Shown: positions 10,840 through 63,130 of the stretch, in pieces
Numbering within the stretch: position 1 is the stretch's first letter
Layout of the letters: the number at the start of each line of letters is the position of its first letter
Assembly: GCA_030068145.1 (NCBI GenBank)
Contig: JAPJBO010000397.1
Location: 1-64,000 of the forward strand
Direction: 5' to 3'
From: Diplonema papillatum
Lineage: Eukaryota; Euglenozoa; Diplonemea; Diplonemida; Diplonemidae
Length of the DNA stretch: 64,000 nucleotides
The notes under the pieces: model-generated
What the model was told of the DNA's origin: nothing
Databases searched by the model: none
Seen by the model: the letters and a program-made list of their open reading frames with translations, nothing else
Position numbers and translations under genes: made by a program

Positions 10840-11997
10840 AGTACCAACAATGCATTGCTGACACAAAAAGGTCACTGTGCGAAGAGCAAGTGGCATGCGG
10901 ATGTTGTAGACGAGATTCTCGCGGTATGTGCGGCACCGCCAGCTAAAGAGGCAGGTTGGGTGAAGGAGACGCGTTGGACAACATAGTCAGCTGGACGCCA
11001 GCAGAACTCACGTGCTTTGGAAAGTTTCATGTAGTACACTGCCGACTACCTACTGATTTATTTCAGTACCAACAATGCATTGCTGACACAAAAAGGTCAC
11101 TGTGCAAGAGCAAGCGTCATGCGGGTTGTAGTAGATAACGAGTATTTACGGTTGATGCGGCATCGCCGGCGAAGGAGGCAGGTTGGGCGAAGTCGACGCG
11201 TTGGACAACATAGTCAGCTGGGCGCCAGCAGAACTCATGTGCTTTGGAAAGTTTCATGTAGTACACTGCCGACTGCCTACTGATGTATTTCAGTACCAAC
11301 AATGCATTGCTGACACAGAAAGGCCACTGTGCAAGAGCAAGCGTCATGCGGGGTTGTAGTAGTAGACAACGAGTATTTAGTTGATACGCAGGTTGGGCGA
11401 ACGAGACGCGTTAGACAACATAGTCAGCTGGACGCCAGCAGGACTCACGTGCTTTGGAAAGTTTCATGTAGTACACAGCCGACTGCCTACTGATTTATTT
11501 TAGTACCAACAATGCATTGCTGACACAAAAAGGTCACTGTGCAAGAGCAAGCGTCATGCGGGGCTGTAGTAGATAACGAGTATTTACGGCTGATGCGGCA
11601 TCGCCGGCGAAGGAGGCAGGTTGGGCGAAGTAGACGCGTCGGACAACATAGTCAGCTGGACGCCAGCAGGACTCGCGTGCTTTGGAAAGTTTCATGTAGT
11701 ACACTGCCGACTGCCTACTGATTTCTTTCAGTACCAACAATGCATTGCTGACACAAGAAGGCCACTGGGGTTGTAGTAGATAACGAGTATTTACGGCTGA
11801 TGCGGCATCGCCGGCGAAGGAGGCAGGTTGGGCGAAGTAGACGCGTTGGACAACATAGTCAGCTGGACGCCAGCAGGACTCGCGTGCTTTGGAAAGTTTC
11901 ATGTAGTACACTGCCGACTGCCTACTGATTTCTTTCAGTACCAACAATGCATTGCTGACACAAGAAGGCCACTGGGGTTGTAGTAGATAACGAGTAT
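10840..11997 (-). repeat. Tandem copies of the J-domain gene 3' end with repeat E
   Basis: Six units spaced 207-232 bp (AATGCATTGCTGACAC near 10850, 11073, 11305, 11514, 11743 and 11950). Most units carry, on the minus strand, a copy of the last 20 or so codons of the J-domain gene, its stop and 3' flank, fused to a repeat E segment (GTACTACATGAAACTTTCC). The copies lack the rest of the gene. They lie immediately downstream of the true stop codon. Confidence 0.85.
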
Positions 11998-13791
11998 TTA
12001 CGGCTGATGCGGCATCGCCGGCGAAGGAGGCAGGTTGGGCGAAGTAGACGCGTTGGACAACGGCGTCAGCCGGACGGGCGGGATGGGCCGCCCTTCGCGC
12101 TTCGCCGCGCGCACCTGCTCGAGCTTCTCGAGCATGCGCCGCTCCCTGTCGCAGGCCTGCTCCTCGCGCTCCATGAACAGCTCGTCGACCTCCGCCCGCC
12201 GCCGCTGCTCCTCGAGCGCCCGCCGGCCGAAGGCCGCCTCTTTTTCGACGACCCGCGCCTTGAACTCGTCCTTCCGCTTCGTCGCCAGCTCGGCCAGGCT
12301 CCGCTGACGGGCCCGTTCCGCCTCCTGGATGCTCTGCAGGCGCTGCAGGTGCGCGGCCTCTTCCCGCTTTTCGGCCTGCTCCCGCCGGAGCCGGTCGTGT
12401 TCGGCGGTGCCGCGGTCAGCCCGCTGCCGCTCCTGCAGGTCGGCCATCCGCTTCGACGCCGCCTTCGACTCGGCCTCCGCCGCCCGCACCCGCTCGGAGC
12501 GCAGGTTGTTGCGCAGCGTTTGCGACGGGTCCGGCCCGTCCGCCCGATGCCGTCCGGCGCGGCTGCGCACCGCCCGCAGCTCGCTCTCCGCTCGCCGTTC
12601 CGCCTCCTTCAGCCACGACTCGTCGCCGGCTTCGTCGGCGGCGGCGGCGGGAGGAGGGGGAGGGGAAGGGGGAGAAAACGAAGAGAGGGGAGGCGACGTG
12701 GGCTTCGCGGCGGCGGGGGTGCTCTTGTCCCTCTGACGCCGCTTCTCGCTCCGCGAGCGCTTCGGCTCGCTCGTCGAGCCGTAGCGCGACATGTGCAAGG
12801 GGGACCCCCGCCCGCTGGCCGACAGGTGGGACAGCGCCGGCGATGGAGCCGGCTGCAGCGGGTCAGTGTGCGGCTTCCTCGCGCGGCCGGCCGCCGTGTG
12901 GTGCGAGTGCTGCGCCTGCTGGCCCGGCGGCAGCAGCGGCGACGCCGCCGCCGCCGCCGCCTTCCGCTCGGAAACGCGGTCCTTCGACCCGCGGCGCGCG
13001 AGCGCCGGCGACGGCGGCGATCCCTGCCGCTTCGCGCCCCGGCCCTGCTGCTGCTGCTGCTGCTTCGGCACCTTGGACGACTGTTGGTTCCGGTGGATCG
13101 GCGGCGTGAACGGACTGGTCACCGGTGACTTCAGCCCCGCGGCCCCGTCATGCGCCTTCGACGAGCCCTGGCGGTGCAGCGGGGGCACCAAGGGGTCGGG
13201 CAACTGCGCGTGGCTTTTCTTGGTCCCGGCGGGCCGCGGCAGCGGGGGCGTCGAAGGAGAGGCTGGGGTGCGGGTGCGCTTTTTGCTCGGCTGCCGGCTG
13301 GCTGCCGCGGCGGCAGGAGCCGGAGTTTGCTGCTGGCTGCCTAACGGCGGGGAGGGAGGCGTGCGGGTGCACTTTTTGCTGGGCTTCTTCGCCGCGGGAG
13401 CCGGTTCCGCGGCGGGGGGGTCGGCGGTCATGTTCTTGTACCACTCAGAGAAGTTGATGTTCTGCTTGCTGAAGTTCTCCTCGTGCTTCTTCCGCTCCGC
13501 CTCCTGCCGCTTGCGGCGCTGGAGCAGCTCTTCGTGCAGCTTGTCCTGCGCCTCGGTCGTCTGCGCGTTCTTGTAGTTCCGCTGGAACGGCTGCTCCCGG
13601 GGGGCGTCCGGCGGCGGGGGCCCCCCTTTGCCCTTGCCCCGCTGCTGCGCGTACTGCTGGAACCAGGAGGCGTCCGGGTTGAAATTCGTGCCCGCCGCCG
13701 CTGCAAACGCGCCGTCCAGGCCCCCGTCGTACCGCCGCCGCGTGTCGGCGCTCATCAGCACCTCGTACGCGTTTGATACTCTTTTGAACAT
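11998..13791 (-). CDS. J-domain protein, exon 2 (rest of J domain and C-terminal region)
   Basis: Continues exon 1 at 16653-16784. It starts at CAG|ATGTTC, completing the J domain with FKRVSNAYEVLMSADTRRRYD, the helix III/IV signature. It then has a Gly/Phe-poor, Lys/Gln-rich helical segment, a long Ser/Pro/Lys-rich low-complexity region with a run of seven Gln (13050-13070), and a highly charged C-terminal part (about 12620-12100; EEAAHLQRLQSIQEAERARQ) expected to form a long helix or coiled coil. It ends with LPPSPAMPHQP and TAA at 11998. Combined protein about 641 residues. J-domain proteins stimulate Hsp70 ATPase; the client or location here is unknown, since there is no zinc-finger region or DnaJ C-terminal domain (class C type). 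The AG acceptor is preserved in all four intronic copies, which supports it. Confidence 0.85.
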   Translation of the reverse strand: MFKRVSNAYEVLMSADTRRRYDGGLDGAFAAAAGTNFNPDASWFQQYAQQRGKGKGGPPPPDAPREQPFQRNYKNAQTTEAQDKLHEELLQRRKRQEAERKKHEENFSKQNINFSEWYKNMTADPPAAEPAPAAKKPSKKCTRTPPSPPLGSQQQTPAPAAAAASRQPSKKRTRTPASPSTPPLPRPAGTKKSHAQLPDPLVPPLHRQGSSKAHDGAAGLKSPVTSPFTPPIHRNQQSSKVPKQQQQQQGRGAKRQGSPPSPALARRGSKDRVSERKAAAAAASPLLPPGQQAQHSHHTAAGRARKPHTDPLQPAPSPALSHLSASGRGSPLHMSRYGSTSEPKRSRSEKRRQRDKSTPAAAKPTSPPLSSFSPPSPPPPPAAAADEAGDESWLKEAERRAESELRAVRSRAGRHRADGPDPSQTLRNNLRSERVRAAEAESKAASKRMADLQERQRADRGTAEHDRLRREQAEKREEAAHLQRLQSIQEAERARQRSLAELATKRKDEFKARVVEKEAAFGRRALEEQRRRAEVDELFMEREEQACDRERRMLEKLEQVRAAKREGRPIPPVRLTPLSNASTSPNLPPSPAMPHQP

Positions 13792-16652
13792 CTGTGGTGC
13801 GGTGTTGGCGGGGTTTCGACGATCCCGTATGGGCGTACAGATAGTGTTCATAGAGCTACAGTCCGCTTGAGATTCCGGGATTTTTATGTTTGTCAGGTTG
13901 CGGCGGCCTTTTGTTTTTACATAAGCGCCAGCTTGAAAGGAAATGCTCGACGATGCTGCCCGACAAAGAACAGAAGGGATCCAAAGTGCTGTAACTACCG
14001 AACCACGTGTTGAACGGACGTGAGGTCATGCGGGTCTACCCCTACACGACAAATCACACAAACACAACAGGTCAAAAGTCCTGAGTGAGAAAACAACACA
14101 CGGTGGTGTAAGCGAAGAACAAATCAGATTGTGTTTGTATTGTATTTGCCCCTTACCTCTATATTTCCCCCCTTCCATTCGGAGTCGAAGCAGCTACATC
14201 GAGTATTTTTAGAGTAAGTTCACTTGGAGATCCGGGGGTTTATAGTCTCCGGGTGCCATTGTCTCGCTATGGTATCGTATACTAGTGTGCGTATCGTATC
14301 TGCGGTTTTTCAGGGAGAAACAGTCTGGAAACGTAGCTTTTCGACAGAGAGTGCCGGCAGGACTCGTGCTTCTTCCGCTCCGCCTCCTGCCGCTTGCGGC
14401 GCTGGAGCAGCTCTTCGTGCAGCTTGTCCTGCGCCTCGGTCGTCTGCGCGTTCTTGTAGTTCCGCTGGAACGGCTGCTCCCGGGGGGCGTCCGGCGGCGG
14501 GGGCCCCCCTTTGCCCTTGCCCCGCTGCTGCGCGTACTGCTGGAACCAGGAGGCGTCCGGGTTGAAATTCGTGCCCGCCGCCGCTGCGAACGCACCGTCC
14601 AGGCCCCCGTCGTACCGCCGCCGCGTGTCGGCGCTCATCAGCACCTCGTACGCGTTTGATACTCTTTTGAACATCTGTGGTGCGGCGTTGGCGGGGTTTC
14701 GACGATCCCGTATGGGCGTACAGATAGTGTTCATAGAGCTACAGTCCGCTTGAGATTCCGGGATTTTTGTGTTTGTCAGGTTGCGGCGGCCTTTTGTTTT
14801 TAGAGTGTAAGTTCACTTGAAGATCCGGGGTTGTATAGTCTCCGGGTACCATTGCGCCGTAAAGGTCTCGTTATGGTATCGTTTACTAGTGTGCGTATCG
14901 TATCTGCGGTTTTTCAGGGAGAAACTGTCTGGAAACGTAGCTGTTCGACAGAGAGTGCCGGCAGGACTCGTGCTTCTTCCGCTCGGCCTCCTGCCGCTTG
15001 CGGCGCTGGAGCAGCTCTTCGTGCAGCTTGTCCTGCGCCTCGGTCGTCTGCGCGTTCTTGTAGTTCCGCTGGAACGGCTGCTCCCGGGGGGCGTCCGGCG
15101 GCGGGGGCCCCCCTTTGCCCTTGCCCCGCTGCTGCGCGCTGCTGGAACCAGGAGGCGTCCGGGTTGAAATTCGTGCCCGCCGCCGCTGCAAACGCGCCGT
15201 CCAGGCCACCGTCGTACCGCCGCCGCGTGTCGGCGCTCATCAGCACCTCGTACGCGTTTGATACTCTTTTGAACATCTGTGGTGCGGCGTTGGCGGGGTT
15301 TCGACGATCCCGTATGGGCGTACAGATAGTGTCTTTCGACTTTTTCATAGAGCTACAGTCCGCTTGAGATTCCGGGATTTTTGTGTTTGTCAGGTTGCGG
15401 CGGCCATTGTTTTTAGAGTGTAAGTTTACTTGGATTGTTATAGTCTCCGGGTGCCATTGCCGTAAAGGTCTCGTTATGGTTTCGTATACTAGTGTGCGTA
15501 TCGTATCTGCGGTTTTTCAGGGAGAAACTGTCTGGAAACGTAGCTTTTCGACAGAGAGTGCCGGCAGGACTCGTGCTTCTTGCGCTTCGCCTCCTGCCGC
15601 TTGCGGCGCTGGAGCAGTTCTTCGTGCAGCTTGTCCTGCGCCTCGGTCGTCTGCGCGTTCTTGTAGTTCCGCTGGAACGGCTGCTCTCGGGGGGGGGGGG
15701 CCCTCTTTGCCCTTGCCCCGCTTCGACACTTTGAACATCTGAAGCGGCTATGGCTGGGTTTCGACGATCCCGTATGGGCGTACAGATAGTGTCTTTCGAC
15801 TTTTTCATAGAGCTACAGTCCGCTTGAGATTCCGGGATTTTGTGTTTGTCAGGTTGCGGCGGCCTTTTGTTTTTAGAGTGTAATACTTGGATTGTTATAG
15901 TCTCCGGGTGCCATTGTCGTAAAGGTCTCGTTATGGTATCATATACAAGTGTGCGTTTCATATCTGCGATTTTTCAGGGAGAAACAGTCTGGAAACGTAG
16001 CTGTTCGACAGGGAGTGCCGGCAGGACTCATGCTTCTTTCGCTCCGCCTCCTGCCGCTTGCGGCGCTGGAGCAGCTCTTCGTGCAGCTTGTCCTGCGCCT
16101 CGGTCGTCTGCGCGTTCTTGTAGTTCCGCTGGAACGGCTGCTCCCGGGGGGCGTCCGGCGGCGGGGGTCCCCCTTTGCCCTTGCCCCGCTTCGACACTCT
16201 TTTGAACATCTGAAGCGGCTACGGCTGGGTTTCGACGATCCCGTATGGCGTACAGATAGTGTCTATCGACTTTTTAGAGTGCAAGGTCGCATAGGGCTTT
16301 TTCATAGAGCTACAGTCAGGGGCAGGTGGTGACCTCGCAGTAGCCATCTTCTCTCACTCTCTAAGGGCTCTGCGGGGTTTACCCCATCGCTAGTAATGCC
16401 ACTGCTCCTCTTTCTATCTTTCTTGGTTCAAAGTGACACGTGCAAGGTGCTGAAGTAGAATTCCGCTTGAGATTCCGGCATTTTTGTGCTTGTGAGGTTC
16501 GGCGGTCTTTTTTCTTTGTCACGGAGAACCCACGCTTTTCGAAAGAGAGCCGGCAGGTCAGTAGTTGCACCAGGTCCACTGCGTTGTCCAAGTGGTTCTG
16601 CCCCACGTCCTACGCGTTGGTAAATAGACTGGTTCAGAAGTTTTTTGCACAC
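13792..16652 (-). repeat. J-domain intron with four partial copies of the exon 2 start
   Basis: Intron of about 2.86 kb. Copies of the first 312 nt of exon 2 lie at 14363-14674 (312 nt), 14967-15276 (310 nt), 15570-15738 (169 nt, internal deletion) and 16027-16209 (183 nt, internal deletion). All keep the CAG|ATGTTC acceptor and all end at the same codon (Lys-Lys-His-Glu), where they join TCCTGCCGGCACTCTCT, which matches intron sequence near 16540-16560. Each unit also contains one or two copies of the GTTCGCTTGA motif. Copy 2 has a frame-breaking 2-nt deletion. No intact downstream splice donor is seen at the shared breakpoint. Confidence 0.9.
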
Positions 16653-16784: not shown

Positions 16785-17189
16785 TGCGTCTCGCCCCCTC
16801 GGGAGTCCTGGGCGCCCCCTTGGTGCGTGTCGGTGTCTCTTTTTTTTTTTTTTTTACTGCTTTTTTTTTCCCGACGACAACTAGTGTCAGACTGTTTTTT
16901 TTTGCCTTCGGTGCACTTTCTTTCCTCTCCTGTCGTGTGCTCGTGTGGGCGGGTATGGAAGAGTTAAGTTTCGGTGACCTTGTCTTCTTGTCGCGATGGT
17001 CACTCGGAGCCGTCGTTTCCTTGATTGAAACAGGTGGAAGTTGCCTTGTTCTCGTCGTCTACCTACTTACAGTTTGTTCTGGGTACGCAAGAGCTTCCTT
17101 GGAGGCCTTCCTGGTAGGCTCGAGACCGTGTCCCGTCTGCACTGTGTAATGATATGTGCAACTACGGGTGGATCGCTTGAGCATCATCC

Positions 17190-23639: not shown

Positions 23640-24060
23640 TTAAGTCTGCGCAACTCACTGAGCATCACCAGCTTCCCGTCTCAACCAGAGAACAAGTTCT
23701 CGTGAGAGACGATGACTTCGCGACGCAGCAGATGCTGAGGCAGGCAACCGAGAGTGAGAAGTGCAAGTGGAAGCAGTCTCCGCGGGGGCCCCGGCGTGTT
23801 GATGGCACTCGGCACGCGTACAAAACGGAGAATATGCATGGCAGCGCCGTTTCCGACGTCACGGCCAAAAAGATGTTCAAAACGGCCCCCGGAGCCGACG
23901 GCTGCAGCCTGCGCAGCTCGCTGAGCTTCGCCATTGTCTCACCCAGAGAACAAGTTCTCGTGGAAAACGACGACTTCAAGATGCAGGGTGCCCGGAAGCC
24001 AAACCCTACAGATGCTGAGGCAGGCAACCGAGAGTGAGAAGTGCATGGAAGCAGTCTCGA
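23640..24060 (-). pseudogene. Decayed copies of the pseudo-metacaspase 3' end
   Basis: Minus-strand frames match the C-terminal half of the neighbouring gene (LSELRRLQPSAPGAVLNIFL, then VTS and IFSV) but with substitutions and frame breaks. Two units are visible by the repeated words CCAGAGAACAAGTTCTCGTG and GATGCTGAGGCAGGCAACCG. They lie directly downstream of the intact gene. Confidence 0.8.
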
Positions 24061-24073: not shown

Positions 24074-25108
24074 CTAAGTAGCCAGCAACTGCTCATCCAC
24101 GTGTTGAAGGTCGAGTTTCGCGCTGGACAGCTCGTCGCGAAGCTCTGCGATGATCGAGCTGAGGTGAAGGCGGCGGTACTCCAAGTCCTCAAGCTTCGCC
24201 ATTGTCGCGTTGAGCTCGTCGAGCGACGGCTGCGGGTGGCGCGGGGGCGCCGGAGTGTTGATGGCACTCGGCACCGCGTACGAAACGGAGAATATGGGCG
24301 GCAGCGCCGTTCCCGACGTAACGTCCAAAAATATGTTCAAAACGGCCCCCGGAGCCGACGGCTGCAGCCTGCGCAGCTCGCTGAGCATCACCAGCTTCCC
24401 GTCGCAGCCGGAGATCCCCACATCACCGTCCGCCTCCTTCGCGAGGCCGCTGTACGAGAACCAAAACGCGTCCGCGCCCGACTTCAGCATCGTGTGCAAC
24501 TTTTTCCGTATCGTGTCCGCCGTCGGCTGCTCGCTGCCGGGCGTATCAGTCAGCAAAGTGACGGATCCGACGCCCCAGCCGCAGTGCTCAAGCCACCGCT
24601 TGATGGATGCCTGAGCCTGGTGTGACCCGGTATTCTGCATGTCCTCCTTGCCCCGTATTTGCTCCACGCCCACCGTCAGCCCGATGCCGACGAGGCCACC
24701 GGAAAATTGGTTGTCGGGCTTGAACAGCATGTCGGACAAGTTCATCTCGCGTGTCGAACTCAGCGACACCGTCCCGGCTGCTTCGGTTGACAGTTGTTGG
24801 TAGACGTCGGCGTAAGACCGTGCGTCGAGGGTCCTCCTGTCGTTGAGCGCGGAGAGGTATTTCCTCTCCGCCGAGACGTCGCGCAGCTGGGTGGTGATCG
24901 TGAACGCGATGTTCACGCCGCGCGCGGCCTCCTTCGACGGCAGCAGCCACGCGTCCCTGCCCTCGGCGTCCGCCGCAGCGCCCCGCCCGAGCGTCGACGA
25001 AGACGCCGTCGCCCGCACGTCCCACGCCCGCGACACTCTCCGCGTCAGCTGCTGCGCGTCCTCCGCGTCCAGGTCCTGCTCTGCTCGCACGCAGAGGCAG
25101 TTCCCCAT
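24074..25108 (-). CDS. Acylated pseudo-metacaspase (catalytically dead caspase-fold protein)
   Basis: 344 residues, single exon, ATG at 25108. The N-terminus MGNCLC has Gly2 for myristoylation and Cys4/Cys6 for palmitoylation, so the protein should sit on a membrane. The caspase-like fold is recognisable: GLVGIGLTVGVEQIRG (strand 1 region) near 137, VTLLTDTPGSEQPTADTIRK near 184, FWFSYSGL near 217, DGDVG and CDGKL, and FLDVTSGTALPP near 260. In active metacaspases the third block reads YSGHG and the last DSCHSG. Here the catalytic His is Leu and the Cys is absent (VT in place of CH), so protease activity is not expected. The C-terminal 60 residues form a charged helix (coiled-coil like). Trypanosoma brucei MCA4 is a known acylated flagellar pseudo-metacaspase; similarity in role is inference. 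Partial copies lie on both sides. Confidence 0.82.
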   Translation of the reverse strand: MGNCLCVRAEQDLDAEDAQQLTRRVSRAWDVRATASSSTLGRGAAADAEGRDAWLLPSKEAARGVNIAFTITTQLRDVSAERKYLSALNDRRTLDARSYADVYQQLSTEAAGTVSLSSTREMNLSDMLFKPDNQFSGGLVGIGLTVGVEQIRGKEDMQNTGSHQAQASIKRWLEHCGWGVGSVTLLTDTPGSEQPTADTIRKKLHTMLKSGADAFWFSYSGLAKEADGDVGISGCDGKLVMLSELRRLQPSAPGAVLNIFLDVTSGTALPPIFSVSYAVPSAINTPAPPRHPQPSLDELNATMAKLEDLEYRRLHLSSIIAELRDELSSAKLDLQHVDEQLLAT

Positions 25109-25119
25109 TTTGACAGCTT

Positions 25120-25644: not shown

Positions 25645-25912
25645 GCGAAGAGGTGTACTTCCTCTCCGCCGAGACGTCGCGCAGCTTGGTGGTGATCGTG
25701 AACGCGATGTTCACGGCGCGCGCGGCCTCCTTCGATGGCAGCAGCCACGCGTCCCTGCCCTCGGCGTCCGCCGCAGGTCGACGAAGACGCCGTCGCCCGC
25801 GTCCCACGCCCGCGACACTCTCCGCGTCAGCTGCTGCGCGTCCTCCGCGTCCGGGTCCTGCTCTGCTCGCACGCAGAGGCAGCTCCCCATTTTGACAGCT
25901 TTTCTACATAAA
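25645..25912 (-). pseudogene. Duplicated 5' end of the pseudo-metacaspase
   Basis: Copy of the first 80 or so codons and 5' flank, including ATG and the acylation signal (MGSCLC), at high identity. A deletion after the Trp-Asp codons shifts the frame, and the copy ends at the SAERKY codons. The 5' flank word CTACATAAAGGGATGGCGCG is the same as at the true gene. Confidence 0.85.
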
Positions 25913-25914
25913 GG

Positions 25915-26245
25915 GATGGCGCGGGGGAAATGCTTTTGTGAGGAGACGAAGTGTGAGGACATCGAGAAGAAGGACCAGTGTGTTGAGACCTCGTGCCCGA
26001 ACTCTGACGATCAGAAGTGCACGTGGGGTGACTCATCGAAGGAACGGAAGTGCGTCTGTGAGGAGACGGAGACATGCAAGATGTACTCGAAGGAGAAGTG
26101 CATGGAGAATGCATGCCCGCAGGATGAGAAGAAGACGTGCTTGTGGGATTGGGTTTGGTCACTGATGAGCAAATTCGGTTGTGGTGCCGTCAGATATGCG
26201 TCTGTCGCTTGTACCTTTCTCGTGAGGCAGTCTAGCTTCACGTGA
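25915..26245 (+). CDS. Cys-rich repeat fragment, plus strand
   Basis: 110 codons from ATG at 25915. Two imperfect repeats of about 37 residues follow the pattern C-x-CEE-x(2-3)-C...C-x-E-x-x-CP...C-x-W: KCFCEETKCEDIEKKDQCV and KCVCEETETCKMYSKEKCM, each closing with CTW or CLW before or near Trp. Even Cys spacing suggests disulphide-bonded or metal-binding modules of a secreted or surface protein. The ATG lies in the duplicated 5' flank of the pseudo-metacaspase, so this frame starts inside host sequence and runs antisense to that gene. Probably an exon fragment of a larger repeat protein moved here; no family name can be given. Confidence 0.4.
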
Positions 26246-31164: not shown

Positions 31165-31366
31165 TTTACACACGCCCTGCACTACGAAGACTACGAGAGT
31201 GGGCTCGGTGAGAAGTGTGCAGTCCGGCGCAGCTGCTTGGGCTCGCGCGAAGCGGTTTGCCACCAGGAGCCCGGCGGTGACCGTCCACGCGAGCGCGGCG
31301 CAGGCGGAGAAGCCGACACTTCCTGTCGACACGCGACGCACTTAATATGACATCGTATAAAACATA
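31165..31366 (-). pseudogene. Third partial copy of the MFS gene 3' end
   Basis: The minus strand retains the VGFSACAALAWT and LLVANRFARAQAAA codons of the transporter's last membrane segment, with substitutions, and ends in the flank ACATCGTATAAAACATA, where a transposable element is inserted. Confidence 0.8.
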
Positions 31367-32828
31367 ATATTATGGTACGATGCCAAACCCCCCCCCCTTT
31401 GCACTAATAAATTTTTTTTTGATGTCACCCCATACTGGCACCTGTGTGGCCCAAAACGGTTCCCAAACGGTTTTTGGCGGGCTGAGTCGAGGTAAAGGGG
31501 TCTCTGAAGGCCCATGAATAGGCCCAGGTAGGCCCAGGGTGGGCCCCGGAGCAGGCACTCAGTGCGAGGGGGGGTGCCCCCAAAATGGGGTCATTTTCAA
31601 AGCCTCGCCACTACTCAAGCTAGTCAAACACCTTCTGGCCTCCAGCAGGAAACCCAGACTTCAAAACGACAAGATCGGCTGTGTTCCGCTGTAGATAGCC
31701 ACCAGCGGGTCCTCTTGAAGCCGAAGAATGTTCTCAGGGGTCACCGATAGCCCTACTTGGCCACCCCGCCTGCAGCGCCTGCGGTGGGCAGGCACACGTT
31801 GTAAATAGAGTGGGTGCAGCAGGTGCACCCTGCCTAGAATCCGGCTTTACCAGCAATACTAATTAAGAATTAAGGTTGACCCAGAAAAACGGAAACTAAG
31901 AGAGGAGAAAATGCCAAAGATCACGGGTCTGGAGTTCGTGGAGTGATCGGTGAGAGCAATGCAGAAGTTGTCGCCGTTTCATGAGGAAACGAGACGTGGT
32001 CAGTCCTTGCAGAGACGACTCGTAGCCAGCAGGACCTTTTGCGAAAAGGTCTCTGGTGAGGACCTGATCGGGTTCTTTCTCGCCCCAATGACAGAGGAGG
32101 AGAAGGTTGACATCTGGATGCGCCTTTCTGGTAGGCTTTCAGAAGCCTTCAACAGCCTTGACGACGAGGCGAGCCGGCGACGCATCGTGAGCGGTTTGCA
32201 CGTGCCCGGTACAGGGCTGTTGGAATGGTCGTGGGTGACAATCTCTGAAAGAACCGGGGAAAGGCTGCCGAGATTAGCGTTGGCGGGGGGGCCCACAGTC
32301 GTCATCTTGGTTCTTTTGCATTTTTCCACCTTGTCTCAAAAGCGGGTGAAGCCGGATTCTAGGCAGGGTGCACTTGCATACCACACATTCTAAGCGTGTG
32401 CCTGCCCACTGCTGGCGCTGCACACATGGGGCTAACTGTGACCCCCGAGAGCATTCTTCGGCTTCAAAAGGACCCGCTGGTGGCTATCTACGACTGAACA
32501 CAGCCGATCTTGTCGTTTTGAAGTCTGGGTTTCCCGCTGGAGGCCAGAAGGTGTTTGACTAGCTTGAGTAGTGGCGAGGCCCGAAAACGACCCCATTTTT
32601 GGGGGCTCTCCCCCTCGCGCTGAGTGCCCGCTCCGGGGCCCACCTGGGCCCACCTGGGCCCATTCGTGGGCCTTCGGAGACCCTCTACCTCGACTCAGCC
32701 CGTCAAAAACCGTTTGGGACCCGTTTTGGGCCACACAGATGGGGGTTCGGGGCCAGTATGGGGTGATGTCAAAAAGGTTTTTATTAGTGCAAAGGGGGGG
32801 GGGGGGGGGTTTGGCATCGTCTCATATA
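31367..32828. mobile_element. 1.46-kb element with long (about 480 bp) terminal inverted repeats
   Basis: The left arm 31367-31850 and the right arm about 32345-32828 are inverted copies (shared words ACGATGCCAAACCCCCC at the tips, TTTGCACTAATAAA, CGACTCAGCCCGTCAAAAAC on the right, GATTCTAGGCAGGGTGCA inside). A unique centre of about 490 bp holds most of a plus-strand frame (31959-32393, 144 codons; SPFHEETRRGQSLQRR, EEEKVDIWMRLSGRL) that runs into the right arm and matches no transposase I know. The flanks AAAACATA and CATGATCTCATGAT are nearly adjacent in the empty paralogous site at about 33395-33412, which fixes the insertion. A foldback or non-autonomous DNA transposon; superfamily unknown. 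Confidence 0.88.
31959..32393 (+). CDS. Hypothetical protein of the long-TIR element
   Basis: 144 codons from an ATG inside the element's unique centre. The middle is a plausible folded segment (CEKVSGEDLIGFFLAPMTEE, then EKVDIWMRLSGRLSEAFNSL), while the C-terminus is read from the inverted arm. No catalytic motif, zinc finger or membrane segment is convincing. It could be the remnant of an element-encoded accessory protein or chance. Its confinement to the centre argues that the centre once carried cargo. Confidence 0.3.
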   Translation: MQKLSPFHEETRRGQSLQRRLVASRTFCEKVSGEDLIGFFLAPMTEEEKVDIWMRLSGRLSEAFNSLDDEASRRRIVSGLHVPGTGLLEWSWVTISERTGERLPRLALAGGPTVVILVLLHFSTLSQKRVKPDSRQGALAYHTF

Positions 32829-33705
32829 CATGATCTCATGATGCTAAAGTTACAACATGCGATGACATGGTATGCGGCATGTTATCAAGACAACATGTGA
32901 AATCACGTATCATCTCCATAACGAGTAGACCATGCACCTGAATGCACCACTTGACCGTGTGTGCCTTTAGTTCTGAGGATCCCGACGCGTGTTTCACGCT
33001 GGGTCAGGTTGCGATCTGGCACTCTGGTACGCACTACTCTGCGAGAACGAAAGGGTTCAATGTCAGAGTGAAAGTTCTTTTTTAGAGTGCAAGTTCACGC
33101 AGAGATCCGGGGGGTTTTTGTGTGCTGCTGGGTTTCTCCGACACTGTTTTTCTACGTGCCTGGATGACAGGGGTCGCCTCGGCGTCGTCGCTGGAGGGGT
33201 CGGCCCGCGGCTGGGGAGGGGTGTGGACTCGGTGAGGTACGTGCGGTCCGGCGCGGCTGCCTGGGCTCGCGCGAAGCGGTTTGCTACCAGGAGCAAGGCG
33301 GTGGCCGTCCAAGCGAGCGCGGCGCAGGCGGAGAAGCCGACACTTCCTGTCGACACGCGACGTACTTGATATGAGGTTTCACATCGTATAAAACATAGCA
33401 TGTGATCTCATGATACTAAACTTACAACATGCGATGACATGGTTTTGCGGCATGTTATCAAGACAACATGTGAAATCACGTGTCATCTCCTTAACGAGTA
33501 GACCGTGCACCTGATTGTCCGTGTGAGCCTTTAGTTCTGAGGATCCTGACGCATGTTTCACTGGGTCAGATTGCGATCTGGCACTCTGGTACGCACTACG
33601 GTTTTCACTTTATCTGCAAGAACGAAAGGGTTCGATTCTCTCGGCTCTCTTTAAGAGTGAAAGTTCTTTTTTAGAGAGTGTGCTGCTGGGTTTCTCCGAG
33701 ACTGT
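32829..33705 (-). pseudogene. Tandem decayed copies of the MFS gene 3' end and flank
   Basis: Two units repeat the flank (TACAACATGCGATGACATGG, GTTATCAAGACAACATGTGA) at about 32850 and 33422. A coding-derived part at about 33120-33360 matches the last 70 or so codons (NRFARAQAAAPDRTYLTEST). Frames are shifted relative to the gene. One GTTCGCTTGA-type motif (AAGTTCACGCAGAGATCCGG) lies at 33083. Confidence 0.85.
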
Positions 33706-33709
33706 TTTT

Positions 33710-34995: not shown

Positions 34996-35289
34996 TGCCC
35001 CCCAAGCTTTCCTTCGCGATGCTGTGCGTGTGAGTTGAAGTCCATGGCTGGAAGCGGTAACGTCTGATGCGGAGCTGGGTGAAGCCCGTGGCTTGAAGTA
35101 GGAAAACGTCTGAAGCGAAGTATAGCCCGATTGTCACTTTCGCCAGTCGGTTTTGAGTGTCCGACACGTTTTCAGGTCCTGTGACTCCTCTCCGAAGGGC
35201 GGGTGGGGCGGGATCCTTCGGAGGACGGACAGAGCGGCCGCTTCTTCATCCGGCATTCGGTTCAAGACTTCTGCTTTCATGTGATGTTA

Positions 35290-40155: not shown

Positions 40156-40159
40156 GGTC

Positions 40160-41015
40160 TTCTAGATAACGAAAGAAACCCCTGGATACGAAACGGTGGT
40201 ATCTAATTTATGGAAAGAAACACGTTATCAGGTAGATAGACTTCGGGGGGGGAAGACTTTGCAACTATAGAGCGTTGGCGGGTGTGAAAGAGAGAGAAGC
40301 CCTACTGCCGCGTTCGTCGAACGGTTGAGAGCAATCTTCCCTGGCTAACGTCTGAAGCGACAAAAGATAGCGTTGGCGGGTGTGTGAGGAGAGAAGTCCT
40401 TCCGCGGTATTTGCCAGCCGGCTATTCTGAAGTTACTATAGCAGCGAAACCGGAAGCGCCGTGGGCGAGAAAGGGCAGACAAACAGGTGGGCGGTTAGTC
40501 CGTCGGGGCTAGACAGTTACGGCGATTAAGAGCAGAGAGCAGCTGGCAGTGGTGTGGTAGTGGTGAGTGTCGCTCCAGCGCAGAGCAAGTTTGCCAGAAG
40601 ACGCGGAGCAGGTGGCGAACAACTTTGCACGAGGCGACACGAGGGGAAACCACCCCCAACAAAAACGAAGAGCCCCAAACGGGAGAGAAACCCGAAAGAG
40701 CGCGCAACTGCTCCAGCATTCCCTCCCTAAACTTCCCCTCAAAATTCGGGCCTCGGCACGAGCCAGAAAGCTCCCCAACCGGACTTCCGGAGCCGACCTC
40801 GGAAACCGTTATGGCCAGGTGCATTCATGTTCCCTCTCAAAAGGCTGAGGCCCAGCCTCCGTTTGTTGTCCTAGTGAGCTCTATACATGGAACTTTGATC
40901 GCTCCTTCACCCTGCAGACGGTGGGCCGGTCAATGGTCCGCTTCTGGCTGGTCAGCTTGAAGGGCAACCTTGCATTCAGCATAATTCTAGGAGCCACGAG
41001 CCCGCATCCTGCGGC
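40160..41015. other. Spacer, no gene recognised
   Basis: Begins with decayed flank sequence of the array (GAAAGAAACACGTTATCAGG, two GCGTTGGCGGGTGTG words). The rest has short frames only. Confidence 0.45.
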
Positions 41016-41832: not shown

Positions 41833-41924
41833 GAACGGCGACTTACACACGGACGACGGGCAAGTGATGCGGAACAGAGAAGAGGCGCAACCGCGCGCAC
41901 CAACAAGTTGCAAAGCATGGGGAT

Positions 41925-42139: not shown

Positions 42140-43211
42140 GCTCCGGGCGCTCAATAACTCGTCGAGCAGTGACTCGAGCGAGATGAAAAGAGCCTCAAAG
42201 CTAAGGTGCGAAGAGAACAGCAATGCCGTTGCAAAAGAGAAAAACGAATAGCAGATCTTTGTACGGCGACTGTGTGCAGGGGGGGGCAATATTTCGCTTC
42301 GGGCACGTGCTAGCCCGTGACATCGCTGGAAGACAACAAACCAACACGACCGGCGGGCGTAACGCACCGGAGCCTTGCACCCCTGGATTGCGTTGACAAG
42401 TACTGCGTCTCCGCGGTGCCCGCGGTGGTCCGGCTCGAGCAGCAATGGGTCGTCACGGATCGCAGCATGCCCCGATTACGGATCGGCGTCGGCGTACGAT
42501 TCTGGCCGCAAGCTGCATGAAGGTGTTGCGTATCCCGATGCAAGCACGCAAAGGGCGCAGACAAAGCGTGCCGTTGCTATCCGGCAACGGCGCTGCCTAC
42601 AGCTGCGGCAGTTTTCTTTTTCGCTGAACCCGGGTAGGCGATCAAGAGCTCACCGAGCTGTAACCCTGCGCCCAAGACGAAAGAAGCATCTGCTCGAACA
42701 GCGATTTTCACCGATCGCGACATGCCTTGGCTATTCGACTTCGGCGTTTTCATCATCAGTGTCTGCGAACGAGTCGAGCCGTTTGGCACCCGTGGCTATC
42801 CGGCAAGGCTGCCAACAGCTGCAGCAGTTTTCTTTTTCGCTGAACCCGGGTGGGCGCTCAAGAGCTCGCCGCGCTGTACCCTGCGATCAAGACGAAAGGA
42901 GCATCTGCTCGAGCAGTGGTGTTCACTGGTCACGGCATGCCTCGGCTATGGCTCGTCGTCTTCGACTTCAGCGTCTTCATCGTCGTCTGCGTACGACTCC
43001 GCCCATTGAGCAACCAGCTGCATGAAGCTGGGGTATCCGCACGACGCAAGCACGTACGGGACGCAGACAAGCGTGTCGTTGTCATCCGGCAGGGCCGCGC
43101 CTCCTCCGGGTGGGCGCTCAAGAGCGCGCCGAGCTGTAATACTGCGATCAAGACGAAAGGAGCATCTGCTCTAATCGAACAGCGATGTTCACTGGTCGCG
43201 GCATGCCTCGG
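42140..43211 (-). pseudogene. Four decayed tandem copies of the BART-domain gene 3' end
   Basis: Units begin with GTTCACTGGTCRCGGCATGC-type words near 42440, 42700, 42915 and 43180 and contain, on the minus strand, recognisable pieces of the last 60 codons (LVCVPYVLASCGYPSFMQL at about 43030; AHPEE or AHPGS variants). A further trace (GCTCAATAACTCGTCGAGCA) is at 42150. They share the gene's 3' flank and decay with distance from it. Confidence 0.85.
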
Positions 43212-43616
43212 CTATGGCTCGTCGTCTTCGACTTCAGCGTCTTCATCGTCGTCTGCGTACGACTCCACCCATTGAGCAACCAGCTGCATGAAGCTGGGGT
43301 ATCCGCACGACGCAAGCACGTATGGGGCGCAGACAAGCGTGTCGTTGCCATCCGGCAGGGCCGCCAGCTCCTGCAACATATCCTTCTGCGCGATGCCCGG
43401 GTGGGCGCTCAAGAACTCTTCGAGCAGGGACTCGATCAAGCCGCAGAACTTTTTGTACACGTGCATGTACTCGATCTTCTGCTCGCGGGCCAGCGTGGCG
43501 TCGGCGAAGACCCTGTTGACCTCCGCTTCCTGATGCATGAACTTGCTCAGCCGCGCCTGCACCGTCTCTGACTGAAACCAAACTTCCAGCTTCTCCACCG
43601 CCGGTGTTGCCGCCAT
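43212..43616 (-). CDS. BART-domain protein (ARL2BP/CFAP36-like)
   Basis: 134 residues from ATG at 43616 to TAG at 43212; an upstream in-frame TTG at 43628 is not needed. The pattern matches the BART fold that binds Arl2/Arl3 small GTPases: LEVWFQSETVQARLSKFMHQ, then FADATLAREQKIEYMHVYKK, FCGLIESLLEEFLSAHPGI and YPSFMQLVAQW, an all-helical bundle ending in an acidic tail (DDDEDAEVEDDEP). In other eukaryotes such proteins act at cilia or in tubulin and mitochondrial Arl2 pathways; a ciliary role is inference. The single exon looks complete. Its 3' end is duplicated several times downstream. Confidence 0.72.
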   Translation of the reverse strand: MAATPAVEKLEVWFQSETVQARLSKFMHQEAEVNRVFADATLAREQKIEYMHVYKKFCGLIESLLEEFLSAHPGIAQKDMLQELAALPDGNDTLVCAPYVLASCGYPSFMQLVAQWVESYADDDEDAEVEDDEP

Positions 43617-51192: not shown

Positions 51193-54100
51193 CTGCTCGA
51201 CAAAGAAACGGTCGCATACGCTCATGGACGAAGCCGTCGTCGGCAGGGACGGGGTCGGCTGCGACTGGTGCAGGGCCGCGGCCGACGCCTCGCGGGCTTC
51301 GAGGTCGCGGAGCCCGGCGGCGGACTTCTCGGTCGACGCGAACTCCGACGCGTCCGGCTCGAAGACGGGCGCCCGCACCGCAGCCACCGGCGGCAGCCCC
51401 GCCCGCATCCCCGCCTTGCACGCCGAGCCGTCCGGGTCCCCGAACCCGGACACCTCTGCCGAGGCCGCGTCGGCAGAGGTGTGCCCGCGGGTGATCACCT
51501 TCGGCGCGAACGGCGAGCCGTTCCAGCCGGGCGGAGCCCGAAACGCCGGGCCAAGCGGGGGGCTGTTGGATCGAGCCCGCGCCCTCGGCGCGTCGGTGTC
51601 GAAAGACACCTCTGCCGACCCCACGGTGTCAACATCTTCGCACGGAGTGAACCCGCGGTGGTTCGTTTCGCGCGGGAGGCTGTCCGATTCAGTCCGCGCC
51701 CTCGGCGCGTCGGTGTCGAAAGACACCTCTGCCGACCCCACGGTGTCAACATCTTCGCACGGAGTGAACCCGCGGTGGTTCGTTTCGCGCGGGAGGCTGT
51801 CCGATTCAGTCCGCGCCCTCGGCGCGTCGGTGTCGAAAGACACCCCTGCCGACCCCGCAGTGTCAACATCCTCGCACGGAGGGAAACCGGTGAAGGTGCC
51901 AACGGGCACCTCCGCCGACGCCGCGCCGGCGCGGCCGCGGGTGCCCGGCCTCGGCGCGAACGGCAAGCCGTTCGCGCCGGGTGGGGGCGCGCGGCTGTGG
52001 CCGTTCGCCGTGCCGTTGGGAGCCAGCCCTGCCGTGTCATCAACAGGCAGTCCTGCTGACCCTACAATGCCATCATCATCTCCAATCGGAGTGGCACCGT
52101 GGTCGTCCGCTTTGTCCGATTCACCCCGCGCCCTCACCGCGTCGGTGTCGAAGGACACACGTGCCGACCCTACGGTGTCAACATCTTCACACGGAGTGGA
52201 GCCGCGGTCGTTCGCTTTGCGCAGGAAGCTGTCCGATTCAGCTTGCGCCCTCACCGCATCGGTGTGAAAAGACACCCCTGCGGACCCTATGGGGTCAACA
52301 TCTCCGCACGGAGTGAAGCCGTGGTCGTTCGCTTTGCGCGGGAGGCTGTCCGATTGAGCCCGCGCCCGCAGCGCGTCTGTGTCAAAAGACACCCCCGCCG
52401 ACCCTACACCGTCAACATCCTCACACGGAGTCGCTTTGCACACGGTGCTGCCTGACGCCCTCGCCACATCGGCGCCGTTCGGCAGAGCCGCCGACCCGCC
52501 GACGGCGGCATCGCGGCCGCTCGCCGCTTCGCGCGGGAACTCGCCGAGCTCCGCCCGCGGCTCGGCGCGGTCACCGGCAGACCCGGCGTCTCCGTCTTCG
52601 CCTGCGACGGAGCAGCAGACCTGCACGTACCCATCAGCCGAGAGCTTTCCGCCTTCGAGCAGCGGCGCCTTCAGGTCGTGGATCTTCCCATCTTCCAACT
52701 CGCCGACGGCGGCGACGAGGCGGCCGAGCAGCCGCTGGTCCCCGTCCGCCGTCCAGCCGAACACGTCGACGGTCAGATCGTCGCCACCGCGCGCCTCGCA
52801 CGTGAACGCGACGTCCCAGCACTGCTCGCCGCCCGATTCGCGCGTTTCCGTCCGGAGCGACTCTCCCGCGCACACGGCCACGGCGTACGGGCTCACGCCT
52901 TCGGGCAGGCCGCGGGCCGCGATTTGCAGCACGTCGACCACCCGCACCGCGCGTGCAGCGTCCGGCAGCCCGGCTGCCCCTTTTTCCGGTGCATCCGCCC
53001 CCGGACGCGTCGCAGACGGTGCGGACGCGGAATCGGACGGCGCCGGGGGAGGCGAGAGCGGCACCGCAGGCGCGCGGTCTGTCCGCGGCGGTGGCGGCGG
53101 ATGTGCACACGGGACTTCGGGCTGCTGCTGGTTGGATGCCGCTGGCTCGATTCCCGGCGTGGCATCTGCCTGGCGGAAGTCCGAAGCAGCGGGTGATCTC
53201 GTTGGCAGCTCTGCCGCATTTGATGGAGGAGGTGGGCCGTCAGGTAGCTGGAAAGGTGCCTCCTCCGGCAGGTTCCTCGCGAGTACTAACTCCGAAGTCT
53301 CGTTCACCGAAGAATCATCGTCCGGACGTGCTCCTGCGACTGCTGCGGGTGGTTGGTGTTGCTCGTCGTGCGCTGCTTCCGGTTCTGAGGGACGGAAGCC
53401 CTGCAACGTTTCCAGTCTTGCTGTCTCTGGCGTCGCCTGCGACGACGCATCGCTCGTCACCTCCACCGTGATGGGCACTCTAGAACCGAACTTCGTCGGT
53501 TCGGCGGGCGGTGTCGACGCTTCCCCCTTCGACGCGTTCCCAGGCTGCGACGGGCCGGCGGTGCTACTGGCGCTAGTGCTCGAAGATTCGGTCCGCCTCA
53601 CGGTCTCCGCTGTGAGGGCACCTTGAAGCTGCAACTGGTCCGAAACACTCGTGTTGGACTTCGTGGATGCAGTCCGTCTCACCGCATCCGTGGAGGATGC
53701 CCCGTGGGGTTGCGACGGTTCGGCATCGGTCGTGTAGGACCGCATGCTCTCAGTCCTCCTCACGGTCTCCGCTGTGAGAGCCCCTTGAAGCTTCAACTGC
53801 GAAACACTCGTGTTGGACTTCGTGGACGCAGTCCGTCTCACGGCATCCGCGGAGGATGCCCCGTGGGATTGCGACGGTTCGGCATCGCTCGTGCTCGACT
53901 TCGCGCTTTCGGTCCGCCTCACGGTCTCCGCCGTGAGCATCGCCTGAAGTTGGAGTTGGTCCGAAACACTCGCGTTCGACTTCCTGGATTCCGTCCGCCT
54001 CACCGTTTCCGCCGTGAGATCCCCTCGGAGCGGCAGCGGTTCCGCGAGGCTCGCGTTCGACTTCGCCGATTCGGCTCGGCCCAAGGTCTCCGCCGTGAGC

Positions 54101-55674
54101 ATCGCTTGAAGTTGGAGTTGGTCCGAAACACTCGCGTTCGACTTCCTGGATTCCGTCCGCCTCACCGTTTCCGCCGTGAGATCCGGTTCTGCGAGACTCG
54201 CGTTCGACTTCGCCGATTCGGCTCGGCCCAAGGTCTCCGCCGTGAGCATCGCTTGAAGTTGGAGTTGGTCCGAAACACTCGCGTTCGACTTCCTGGATTC
54301 CGTCCGCCTCACCGTTTCCGCCGTGGGATCCGGTTCTGCGAGACTCGCGTTCGACTTCGTCGACTCGGCCCGGCGCAGGGTCGCCGCCGTGGAACCGTCT
54401 CGCCGCTGCGGCTGCGATTCTGCAGCACCGCTCGCGCCGGTCGCCGACGTGGGCCTCCCCGAGCCGTGTGCCGGGGAACTCCGAACAGCGGAGGCGCCTG
54501 ATTCCAGGGCGGGAGGGGTCGGCTCGCCCCCGGCTGCCGGGCGGCGCCTTTTCCCCGCGAGCCCCGCCGGAGGGCAACCGGGCGGCGACGTCTGGCGGGG
54601 CTCTTCCCCGCCGCCGCCGGCCGACGACCCTGAGCCCGCCGGGTCGGCCGCGGGCGGCGAGCCAGCGCGCACCTTCCGTATCTCCTCCTGCAGCCGAGCG
54701 AGCTCTAGGCCGCGCTCCGACGGGGCTCGGGGGCCCGAGGCTTCCCGCCGCTGGCTGTCCACCTGCGCCCGCGCCGCCGCCGCCCGCCGCCGGTCGCGCT
54801 CGAGGTGGTCCCGCTGCGCCTCGAACTGAGGCGAGTCGATCGACGCCGTCGAGTGGCTGAACAGCGGGTCTGCACGGTCGAAGCCCGGCGAACCCCGCGT
54901 CCCTTGCCCGGGGGATCCCCCGCTCCCTGGCGCCGCCCGCCGCCGGTCGCGCTGCGCCTCGAACGGAGGCGAGCCGACCGACGCCGTCGAATGGCTGAGC
55001 AGCGGGTCCGCACGGCCGTGCGGCTCAAAACCCGGCGAAGCCCGCGTCCCTTGCCCGGGGGATCCCCTCCCGCTCCCGGGCCAGTTCTGCGCCTCGTGCG
55101 CCGGGGGCGGCACGCCCACCTGCCCGCGGAGGACGCGGACCTGCTCTTTGAGGATGCCGATGGTCTCGCGGAGCGACCGGTTTTCGCACTGCACGATGCG
55201 CAGCCGCTCTTGGGCGAGCTTCTTCGCTTTTTCGGCGTCGCGGGCGGCTTTGGCGGCGGGCGTGCCGGAAGGGGTGTGCGGGCTTTCCCTCGCGCGCTGC
55301 AGGCACGCGTCGTCGGCGCCGCCGCTGACCAGGCAGCACTCGCGCATGACCCGGCGGACGAGCGGCAGCGGCAGCTTTTCCTTCAGCTCCGCCAGCGTTA
55401 CGTCCAGCAGATCGTCCGCGCACCGCACCGACAGGCCCGCAAGCGCCTCGACCTGCCCGGGGGCGAGCCCTAGCAGGGCCAGCCGCGTCGCGAAGTTGAC
55501 GGCCGCCGCGCTGCCAAGGAGCCCCGCACCCCGGGGGTGCCCACGGCCGGGGGACGTGGCGGAGACGCTCGCTTGCTCTCGGTCCGCGTGCTGCTGCAAG
55601 AGCGCGTGCAGCTCGGCGGACTTGGTCTGTTCGGCCCGCAGCTGCTCGTTGGCGGAGGCCCGGACGGTTTCGAC
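51193..55674 (-). CDS. Large C2-domain protein with two internal repeat blocks (exon)
   Basis: One 4.5-kb exon, phase 0, between the acceptor CTGACAG|GTCGAAACC (55674) and the donor GAGCAG|GTTTCT (51193). It starts with a coiled coil (SANEQLRAEQTKSAELHALL), has a helical segment (NFATRLALLGLAPGQVEALA), then a second coiled coil (AKKLAQERLRIVQCENRSLR). About ten repeats follow containing TAETVRRTESxKSNAS (53.6-54.4 kb), rich in RRxS/T sites for basophilic kinases. A C2-like domain (52.6-52.95 kb; VRVVDVLQIAARGLPEG ... VAVCAGESLRTE ... LTVDVFGWTADGDQ) lacks an obvious full set of Ca-binding Asp. The C-terminal block has about eight repeats with TPCEDVDTVGSAGVSFDTDA. It could be a membrane-associated, kinase-regulated scaffold; this is inference. 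The true start lies in an upstream exon not identified. Confidence 0.7.
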
Positions 55675-56580
55675 CTGTCAGATGGTGAATACACTGTGGT
55701 TAGTATTCAGCAACGGGGTAATAACATTGTGTAAGTGCCAACTTTCGTCGAAAATAATGAAGATCTACGATCTTCTTTATCGTCGTTCTCTAGCGAGCTT
55801 GTACGCCTTTTTTATGGGCGCGAAAAGGCGAAATATGTTCAGAAAGCATGACCCGGCGGACTTCGTCTGTTCGGCCCGCAGCTGCTCGTTGGCGGAGGCC
55901 CGGACGGTTTCGACCTGTCAGATGGTGAATACAATGTGGTTAGTATTCAGCAACGGGGTAATAACATTGTGTAAGTGCCAACTTTCGTCGAAAATAATGA
56001 AGATCTGCGATCTTCTTTATCGTCGTTCTCTAGCGAGCTTGTACGCCTTTTTTATGGGCGCGAAAAGGCGAAATATGTTCAGAAAGCATGACCCAGCGGA
56101 CTTCGTCTGTTCGGCCCGCAGCTGCTCGTTGGCGGAGGCCCGGACGGTTTCGACCTGTCAGATGGTGAATACACTGTGGTTAGTATTCAGCAACGGGGTA
56201 ATAACATTGTGTAAGTGCCAACTTTCGTCGAAAATAATGAAGATCTGCGATCTTCTTTATCGTCGTTCTCTAGCGAGCTTGTACGCCTTTTTTATGGGCG
56301 CGAAAAGGCGAAATATGTTCAGAAAGCATGACCCAGCGGACTTCGTCTGTTCGGCCCGCAGCTGCTCGTTGGCGGAGGCCCGGACGGTTTCGACCTGTCA
56401 GATGGTGAATACACTGTGGTTAGTATTCAGCAACGGGGTAATAACATTGTGTAAGTGCCAACTTTCGTCGAAAATAATGAAGATCTGCGATCTTCTTTAT
56501 CGTCGTTCTCTAGCGAGCTTGTACGCCTTTTTTATGGGCGCGAAAAGGCGAAATATGTTCAGAAAGCATGACCCGGCGGA
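55675..56580 (-). repeat. 240-bp array repeating the C2 gene's acceptor and exon start
   Basis: Three further copies (four with the genuine one) of exon start plus intron end, exactly 240 bp apart (CTGTCAGATGGTG at 55675, 55915, 56155 and 56395). Each unit has, on the minus strand, a perfect TACTAAC branch-point word about 30 nt before CTGACAG, the first 60 nt of the exon, then intron. Units are about 99 percent identical, so the expansion is recent. The exon parts end at the same AAGTCCGC codon. Confidence 0.95.
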
Positions 56581-56790
56581 CGAGTGGGCAGCCTTTCCTT
56601 CAGTGTTTTTCTTTCCGCCAGCGTTCGTCCGCACCGCACCAACAGCAGGCCCGCCAGCGCCTCGACCTGCCCGGGGGCAAGCCCTAGCAGGGCCAGAAGT
56701 TGACGGCCGCTGCGCTCCCAAGGAGCCCCGCAGCCCGGGGGTGCCGTGTGGCGGAGAAGCTCGCTTACTCTCGGTGGAATGGTGTGGGAA
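56581..56790 (-). pseudogene. Decayed outer copy of the C2 exon
   Basis: Matches 55370-55590 of the real exon with deletions (CGCCTCGACCTGCCCGGGGG, GAGCCCCGCA-CCCGGGGGTG). The position beyond the array shows an older, larger duplication preceding the 240-bp expansion. Confidence 0.8.
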
Positions 56791-57110: not shown

Positions 57111-57146
57111 GCGTGGGCACCAAAAAAAAAAGGAAAAGAAACTGAC

Positions 57147-58192: not shown

Positions 58193-58322
58193 CTGGTAGT
58201 GTTCGGATGCGAACAACAACGACACTGGTAGGGTTCGGATGCGAGCAACAACGACACTGGTAGTGTTCGGATGCGAACAACAACGACACTGGTAGTGTTC
58301 GGATGCGAACAACAACGACATT
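58193..58322. repeat. 32-bp tandem repeat, four copies
   Basis: TAGTGTTCGGATGCGAACAA-CAACGACACTGG repeated four times, one copy with two changes. Sits in the intron directly upstream of the PH-like exon. Confidence 0.92.
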
Positions 58323-62895: not shown

Positions 62896-62934
62896 CAGGT
62901 AGGACGAGTGCACGAAATTCGCTGACATTAAACC

Positions 62935-63130
62935 TCCAGTTTAGACAGAGCACCCTCGTACGGAAGGTACCGCTTGATCGCGTTGCCTTTGACGTCCGCC
63001 AGCATCAGGTGCGAGTGCGTGGCGGCGAGGGCCCGCTTCTGGAAGTGGCCCTTCGCGCTCTTCTTCTCGACGACCCGCAGGAACCGAGCCCGGGGAAGTC
63101 CGTGAACCCTGACAGAACACTGCCTCTCGT
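62935..63130 (-). pseudogene. Partial copy of the PH-domain exon
   Basis: The minus strand repeats RFLRVVEKKSAKGHFQKRAL and the following ATHSHLMLADVKGNAIKRYL codons of the gene at 63375 almost exactly, but starts and ends within that exon and has a frame break near its start. It lies downstream of the gene, beyond a repeat U copy. Confidence 0.88.

Follow-up and report, generated by a model that had tools for sequence, protein, structure and literature searches.

Genes and partial copies in the window

The window, a 64,000-nucleotide stretch of the Diplonema papillatum genome (GenBank assembly GCA_030068145.1, contig JAPJBO010000397.1, positions 1 to 64,000; contig C397 of the 2910 contigs, 271,365,524 bases in all, that were searched), contains protein-coding genes flanked or interrupted by partial copies of their own ends. 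Coding segments were delimited with a codon-usage model trained on the same sequence; segments scoring below 25 and apparent pseudo-copies of a longer segment were dropped, and 80 kb of sequence shuffled in two-base blocks returned 0 segments. Self-alignment of the window yielded 204 repeated pairs. Among pairs of at least 60 bp lying within 3 kb of each other, 84 were direct and 2 inverted, with the proviso that many-copy arrays inflate such pair counts. Local direct copies of the segment's own 5′ or 3′ coding part lie outside it at 7 of the 11 coding segments of at least 300 bp, two of the 11 belonging to one C2-like frame. The segments concerned are exon 2 of a J-domain gene (both sides), a metacaspase-like gene (both sides), an MFS transporter gene (3′), an ARM-like gene (5′), a BART gene (3′), a C2-like gene (5′) and the segment 63376-63999 (3′).

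The original prediction, made from the letters of the window, had described these copies as partial, mostly tandem and dense, and in this it was right: the copies are real. It had placed them at seven or more of nine loci. Local, same-strand, partial copies were found at six of the genes that it named; the seventh locus is the segment 63376-63999 and not the presumed "PH" gene at 57144-58157, whose only array outside the coding segment is a 32-bp unit repeated four times. If the gene at 63 kb was the one meant, that gene does carry a copy. Pfam searches of the frames scanned agreed with the family names J, MFS and BART, gave a weak C2 match below the cut-off (E 0.02), and did not confirm metacaspase, ARM/HEAT or PH. 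The predicted list had also omitted arrays that are non-coding or internal to the C2-like coding sequence, which make up 14 and 3, respectively, of the 26 window arrays (pairs of at least 60 bp and at least 70% identity within 3 kb).

At the J-domain gene, the features are as follows.

12010..13773, minus strand: coding part of exon 2, the large exon (codon-usage segmentation, two segments merged)
11998-12000, minus strand: stop codon
16656..16766, minus strand: first exon matching the J domain, at profile positions 1-37 (profile search); the intron between this and exon 2 carries copies
13480..13919, minus strand: source unit, made up of ~125 bp of intron, the acceptor AG and the first ~310 bp of exon 2
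14363..16262, minus strand: region with four intron copies of the source unit
14363-14802, minus strand: intron copy 1, 99%
14967-15415, minus strand: intron copy 2, 96%
15570-15875, minus strand: intron copy 3, 85-90%, internal deletion
16027-16262, minus strand: intron copy 4, 84-98%, internal deletion
16462-16517, minus strand: further trace of the intron unit
10834..12076, minus strand: 3′ array, unit 207-228 bp, 5 extra copies (one partial), 71-98%

Taken alone, exon 2 gives a DnaJ match below the cut-off (E 1.9e-4, profile positions 33-63), and its acceptor AG is predicted at 13793-13792 from the split of the J domain between the two exons. The source unit crosses this predicted acceptor, as is expected of intron gain by tandem duplication, and the intron seems to have grown by duplication across its splice site. 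In the exon part, copies 3 and 4 are both shorter by a net 129-143 bp, and they have a changed acceptor context in common; these observations suggest duplication of an already decayed unit. A net frameshift is present in the exon part of two of the four copies. The source of the 3′ array (11870-12076) takes in the final 79 bp of the coding sequence with its stop codon. In the genome search, 8 of 10 matches to the exon-2 unit fell in the window, the remaining two being 57 and 30 bp long. A stretch of 286 bp (13920-14205) separates the real exon 2 from the last intron copy; it is unmatched elsewhere in the window, has an A-run at both ends and resembles a sequence inserted into the array.

The other genes and their copies are listed next.

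24083..25108, minus strand: metacaspase-like gene, family without Pfam confirmation (codon-usage segmentation)
25645..25925, minus strand: 5′ copy of 24849-25143, 91.6%
23781..23933, minus strand: 3′ copy, 91.6%, source 24240-24393; another trace at 23643-23691
33713..35029, minus strand: MFS transporter gene (Pfam MFS_1, E 2.3e-12; codon usage)
31199..33356, minus strand: MFS 3′ copy region, source 33403-33925; copies at 32831-33356 (83%) and 31199-31332 (87%)
37050..38426, minus strand: ARM/HEAT-like gene, family without Pfam confirmation (codon-usage segmentation)
38125..40179, minus strand: ARM-like 5′ array, units of 428-447 bp plus one partial; copies 79, 97, 79 and 81% identical to the source
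43218..43604, minus strand: BART gene (Pfam ARL2_Bind_BART, E 1.4e-8)
42482..43425, minus strand: BART 3′ array, 266-bp source 43160-43425, copies 71-94%
51211..55677, minus strand: C2-like gene with in-frame internal repeats of 108-117, 162 and 138 bp (codon usage; weak C2 match)
55614..56581, minus strand: C2-like 5′ array, 240 bp x 4, ~99%, overlapping the coding segment over its initial 64 bp
62955..63109, minus strand: 3′ copy, 96.8%; source 63385-63540, within the coding segment 63376-63999
58193..58320, no strand assigned: minisatellite, 32 bp x 4, lying upstream of the gene 57144-58157; not a coding-edge copy

The ARM-like array contains a 1219-bp self-match (94.6%) with a period of 881, so that an 881-bp dimer has itself been duplicated; all five genome matches to its unit are inside the window. 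Together with J copies 3 and 4, the dimer would be consistent with several successive duplications, of the kind that unequal exchange would produce. A decay of copies with distance from the gene, as had been proposed, is not general: outward identities are 79, 97, 79 and 81% in the ARM-like array and flat at about 99% in the C2-like array, and J copy 4 (98% over 164 bp) is more similar to the source than copy 3 (90%). The MFS 3′ copy region also holds an inverted repeat (31371-31854 and 32342-32826; 504-column alignment, 83%), a rare arrangement among the local repeats seen here.

Local duplication and reading frame across the genome

The window was compared with 40 control regions, namely 20 stretches of 10 kb at hand-picked round coordinates, 12 loci taken from the top Ras and UQ_con hits and the 8 highest-ranking J-domain loci. 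The last two groups, 20 gene-centred loci together, form a non-random sample, and four loci chosen by spliced-leader hits (L009-L012) were excluded from use. With the same limits of 60 bp and 3 kb, the controls contained 197 direct and 6 inverted pairs, direct ones occurring in 32 of the 40 regions and inverted ones in 4. When the limit was 50 bp, 18 of the 20 arbitrary regions had a direct pair and 6 an inverted one. Across all 41 sequences, window and controls together, 92 arrays were found, of which 60 are non-coding, 22 edge-crossing or partial and 10 internal to coding DNA. The feature is not confined to genes. The duplicated unit has a median length of 140 bp (middle 90%, 64-428 bp), and this small size accounts for the lack of whole-gene copies. 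Edge or partial copies accompany 6 of the 45 control coding segments in the arbitrary regions; in the gene-centred ones they accompany 5 of 22. Compared with these figures, the window is unusually dense.

The period of the arrays depends on where they lie. It is divisible by 3 in all 10 coding-internal arrays, compared with 7 of 22 among the edge or partial arrays and 24 of 60 among the non-coding ones; among single coding-internal pairs, 42 of 44 periods are divisible by 3. Frame-breaking duplications are nearly missing inside coding DNA, and those that cross an edge are free of the frame. As a duplication across an edge leaves the gene intact, partial copies that span the edge arise without regard to frame.

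According to the original prediction, the copies keep splice acceptors and stop codons better than reading frames. The counts are true, the acceptor AG being present in all four J copies and the stop in all six copies examined (J, MFS and BART), but they do not exceed general retention. The product of general dinucleotide retention is about 0.27 for the acceptors, and that of triplet retention about 0.23 for the stops, both calculated by hand for copies that are not independent. Frames are lost more readily than such signals because a single indel suffices. Preferential keeping of acceptors and stops was accordingly rejected.

Repeats within or between genes were also encountered elsewhere in the genome. 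The J-domain search gave 127 hits; by eye, same-strand hits with overlapping profile ranges lie within about 2 kb of each other on at least seven contigs (C582, C125, C281, C430, C13, C858 and C327). J-like hits with an inner TAG occur at a spacing of exactly 2840 bp on contigs C287, C1490 and C2512. Eight Ras-like hits follow one another about 1.3 kb apart in C1847 (26-9309), and a 393-aa open frame in C348 (70489-71565) has two Ras domains with starts 603 bp apart. In region L031 (1-9639), a 3213-aa open frame that runs off the region end has in-frame internal repeats, e.g., of 459-483 bp.

Placement relative to coding edges and explanations of the copies

The original prediction held that duplication prefers exon edges. 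In the 40 controls, the coverage by local duplications, from which coding-internal arrays were excluded, is 5.7% in the last 100 bp inside the coding edge, 8.3% at 1-100 bp outside it, 12.4% at 100-200 bp and 15.5% at 200-400 bp; further out it is 13.6% at 400-800 bp, 11.9% at 800-1500 bp and 7.4% at 1500-4000 bp. There is no coverage peak at the coding edge in these regions. Coverage in the window is 34-44% from 200 bp inside the edge to 1500 bp outside it, again with no edge peak. In a placement model from which the partial arrays were excluded (8 of 82: 2 in the window and 6 in controls), the controls had 7 edge-crossing arrays versus 4.02 expected (P 0.10). When arrays were split at 92% identity, young control arrays gave 1 edge-crossing case versus 0.95 expected, in a small set of 19 arrays of which 16 were counted. 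Breakpoints indifferent to exon edges, the outcome that the prediction itself had named as counting against it, are what control coverage and young control arrays display. Young arrays thus show an excess only in the window, where the excess described below remains. Exon edges as special duplication sites are not supported.

We consider it highly probable that the copies in the window are explained by frequent local tandem duplication combined with purifying selection, largely blind to gene structure. Short stretches of DNA would often be duplicated head to tail or nearby, at sites that largely ignore gene structure, and existing arrays would grow on by unequal exchange. Duplications disrupting a reading frame would be discarded by purifying selection. 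Where a duplicated stretch starts in an exon and ends in an intron, an untranslated region (UTR) or intergenic DNA, or the reverse, the outcome would be an intact gene plus a truncated copy outside it, which would survive and drift. The spread of duplications over most controls, the bias of direct over inverted pairs, the missing edge peak, periods consistently divisible by 3 only inside coding DNA and the serial duplication of the ARM-like unit are all observed. Slippage or unequal exchange would be the molecular cause, and the copies are presumably neutral.

A number of results weigh against this explanation. The window has 7 edge-crossing arrays versus 1.78 expected (P 0.001), or 6 versus 1.21 with tandem arrays only (P 0.0004), figures to be read with the selection in mind that the window is where the pattern was first noticed. 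Young window arrays cross edges in 3 cases versus 0.79 expected (P 0.033). The tandem-only controls also show an excess (6 versus 2.13, P 0.013), as do all 41 sequences pooled (14 versus 6.07, P 0.002). In the 20 gene-centred loci, the drop of coverage inside coding DNA is less clear, with 15% at 200-300 bp inside and a wide interval. Two of the 44 single coding-internal pairs have periods that are not divisible by 3, and with a 40-bp limit two coding-internal periods in L030 (355 and 367) are not either. The direct bias is weaker at 50 bp in the 20 arbitrary regions (162 direct versus 27 inverted pairs, 20 of the 27 from one region), and 41 of the 82 arrays that are not coding-internal are gapped and not strictly head to tail. 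Finally, the coding map is made from codon usage and not from transcripts, and it misses short exons.

The placement excesses would be expected if gene or exon edges were true duplication hot spots, for instance through breaks at transcription, trans-splicing or polyadenylation sites, which we regard as unlikely. In one form of this idea, put forward for gene edges in diplonemids, breaks would perhaps arise where polycistronic RNA undergoes trans-splicing or polyadenylation, genes would over time be surrounded by copies of their own ends, and introns would lengthen on the acceptor side; this form is equally doubtful. Besides the window and pooled counts, hot spots are favoured by the lower control coverage beyond 1.5 kb from coding DNA than at 100-800 bp, and by the excess among old control arrays (6 versus 3.08, P 0.075). 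Old window arrays gave 4 versus 1.02 (P 0.013), and pooled tandem arrays 12 versus 3.54, with 0 of 20,000 simulations as high. Edge coverage without a peak in controls or window and the chance level of young control arrays argue against them, and the 22 edge or partial arrays show no polarity, 10 being at 5′ ends and 12 at 3′ ends. The excess of old edge pairs may arise because a constrained coding copy keeps the pair alignable for longer.

It is very improbable that the copies are a functional device, i.e., alternative first or last exons or RNA-pairing elements, as the original prediction had suggested. The acceptors and stops present in all copies examined would suit such a role, but their retention is no higher than overall identity predicts. 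Half of the J exon parts are out of frame, direct copies within one transcript would not be mutually complementary, and in the published example of PMC10161547 the array is absent from mature mRNA. Least probable of all is an assembly artefact of noisy reads, for although 9 of 31 window copy rows ("PH" rows excluded) are at least 95% identical to their source, the other 22 are below 95%, which is unexpected from mis-assembly of one locus, and the long reads that span the example in PMC10161547, at one locus there, make an artefact unlikely for the phenomenon.

Relation to described structures and significance

The phenomenon has been published for D. (Paradiplonema) papillatum under the name of "repeat-bounded gene structures" (Valach et al. 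2023, PMC10161547), of which dozens of cases turned up during curation, as stated in the relevant passages. For one locus, the worked example, these passages report repeat copies covered by long reads and an array that is absent from mature mRNA. As in the window, 5′ or 3′ gene portions, part of the coding sequence (CDS) included, are tandemly repeated in a flank or intron, and the copies are degenerate (71-96% in the published case, with a distal one at 47%). A terminal gene part including some CDS is repeated beside the gene at the seven segments of the window listed above, and the window cases are further examples of the feature already described. The passages of PMC10161547 contain no test of placement against chance or of frame, both of which the present analysis has; a further difference is that the window is denser than the 40 control regions. 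Gene-end copies are not mentioned in the relevant passages of PMC12621601 (diplonemid introns), PMC12817076 (Eukan) or PMC12171722 (Rhynchopus genome).

Other systems are similar in part. In the potato case of intron gain by tandem duplication, as PMC4974935 describes it, the duplicated stretch spans the junction of an intron with an exon, and so does the unit at J exon 2; there, a new spliced intron was formed, whereas here a predicted existing intron was apparently lengthened. In Drosophila yakuba, tandem duplications accompanied by exon shuffling likewise give rise to chimeric gene structures, in that case studied, according to PMC5460883, with a population sample and RNA-seq, in contrast to the one genome sequence used here.

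Introner elements are repeated sequences with splice signals, situated in introns and dispersed among many genes. The J copies resemble them in carrying splice signals within an intron, but such dispersal was not found: the two units searched for, J exon-2 and ARM-like, are local only, bar the stretches of 57 and 30 bp. Retroposed gene fragments were rejected as well, since the J unit retains intron sequence and the copies are local and on the same strand.

The window holds further repeated sequence. A 48-bp unit is repeated 17 times at 97% in 9923-10745, a region that is non-coding on the codon-usage map, and members of a dispersed repeat family, about 120-170 bp long and sharing about 81-97% identity, lie at 2800-2972, 3664-3783, 28466-28638, 28968-29113 and 41919-42088. 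Fragments of the 28S rRNA gene lie at 5147-5356 (plus strand), 5484-5757 (minus) and 17138-17421 (minus); the genome of D. papillatum is given in PMC10161547 as ~280 Mb with ~3600 scattered 28S pieces. A pattern for the 3′-terminal part of the spliced leader of diplonemids occurs 628 times in the genome searched, versus 0 times for a backward control; with the genome size and the 28S fragments, this points to a diplonemid. A search of this genome for chlorophyll-binding proteins found none.

Frequent local duplication under purifying selection helps account for a large, repeat-rich protist genome and for gene prediction errors there. It also represents a case in which mutation and purifying selection can mimic an exon-edge device. 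If confirmed with transcripts, it would mean that one genome offers many natural examples of duplications crossing the edges of genes, through which introns could grow in a way open to testing.

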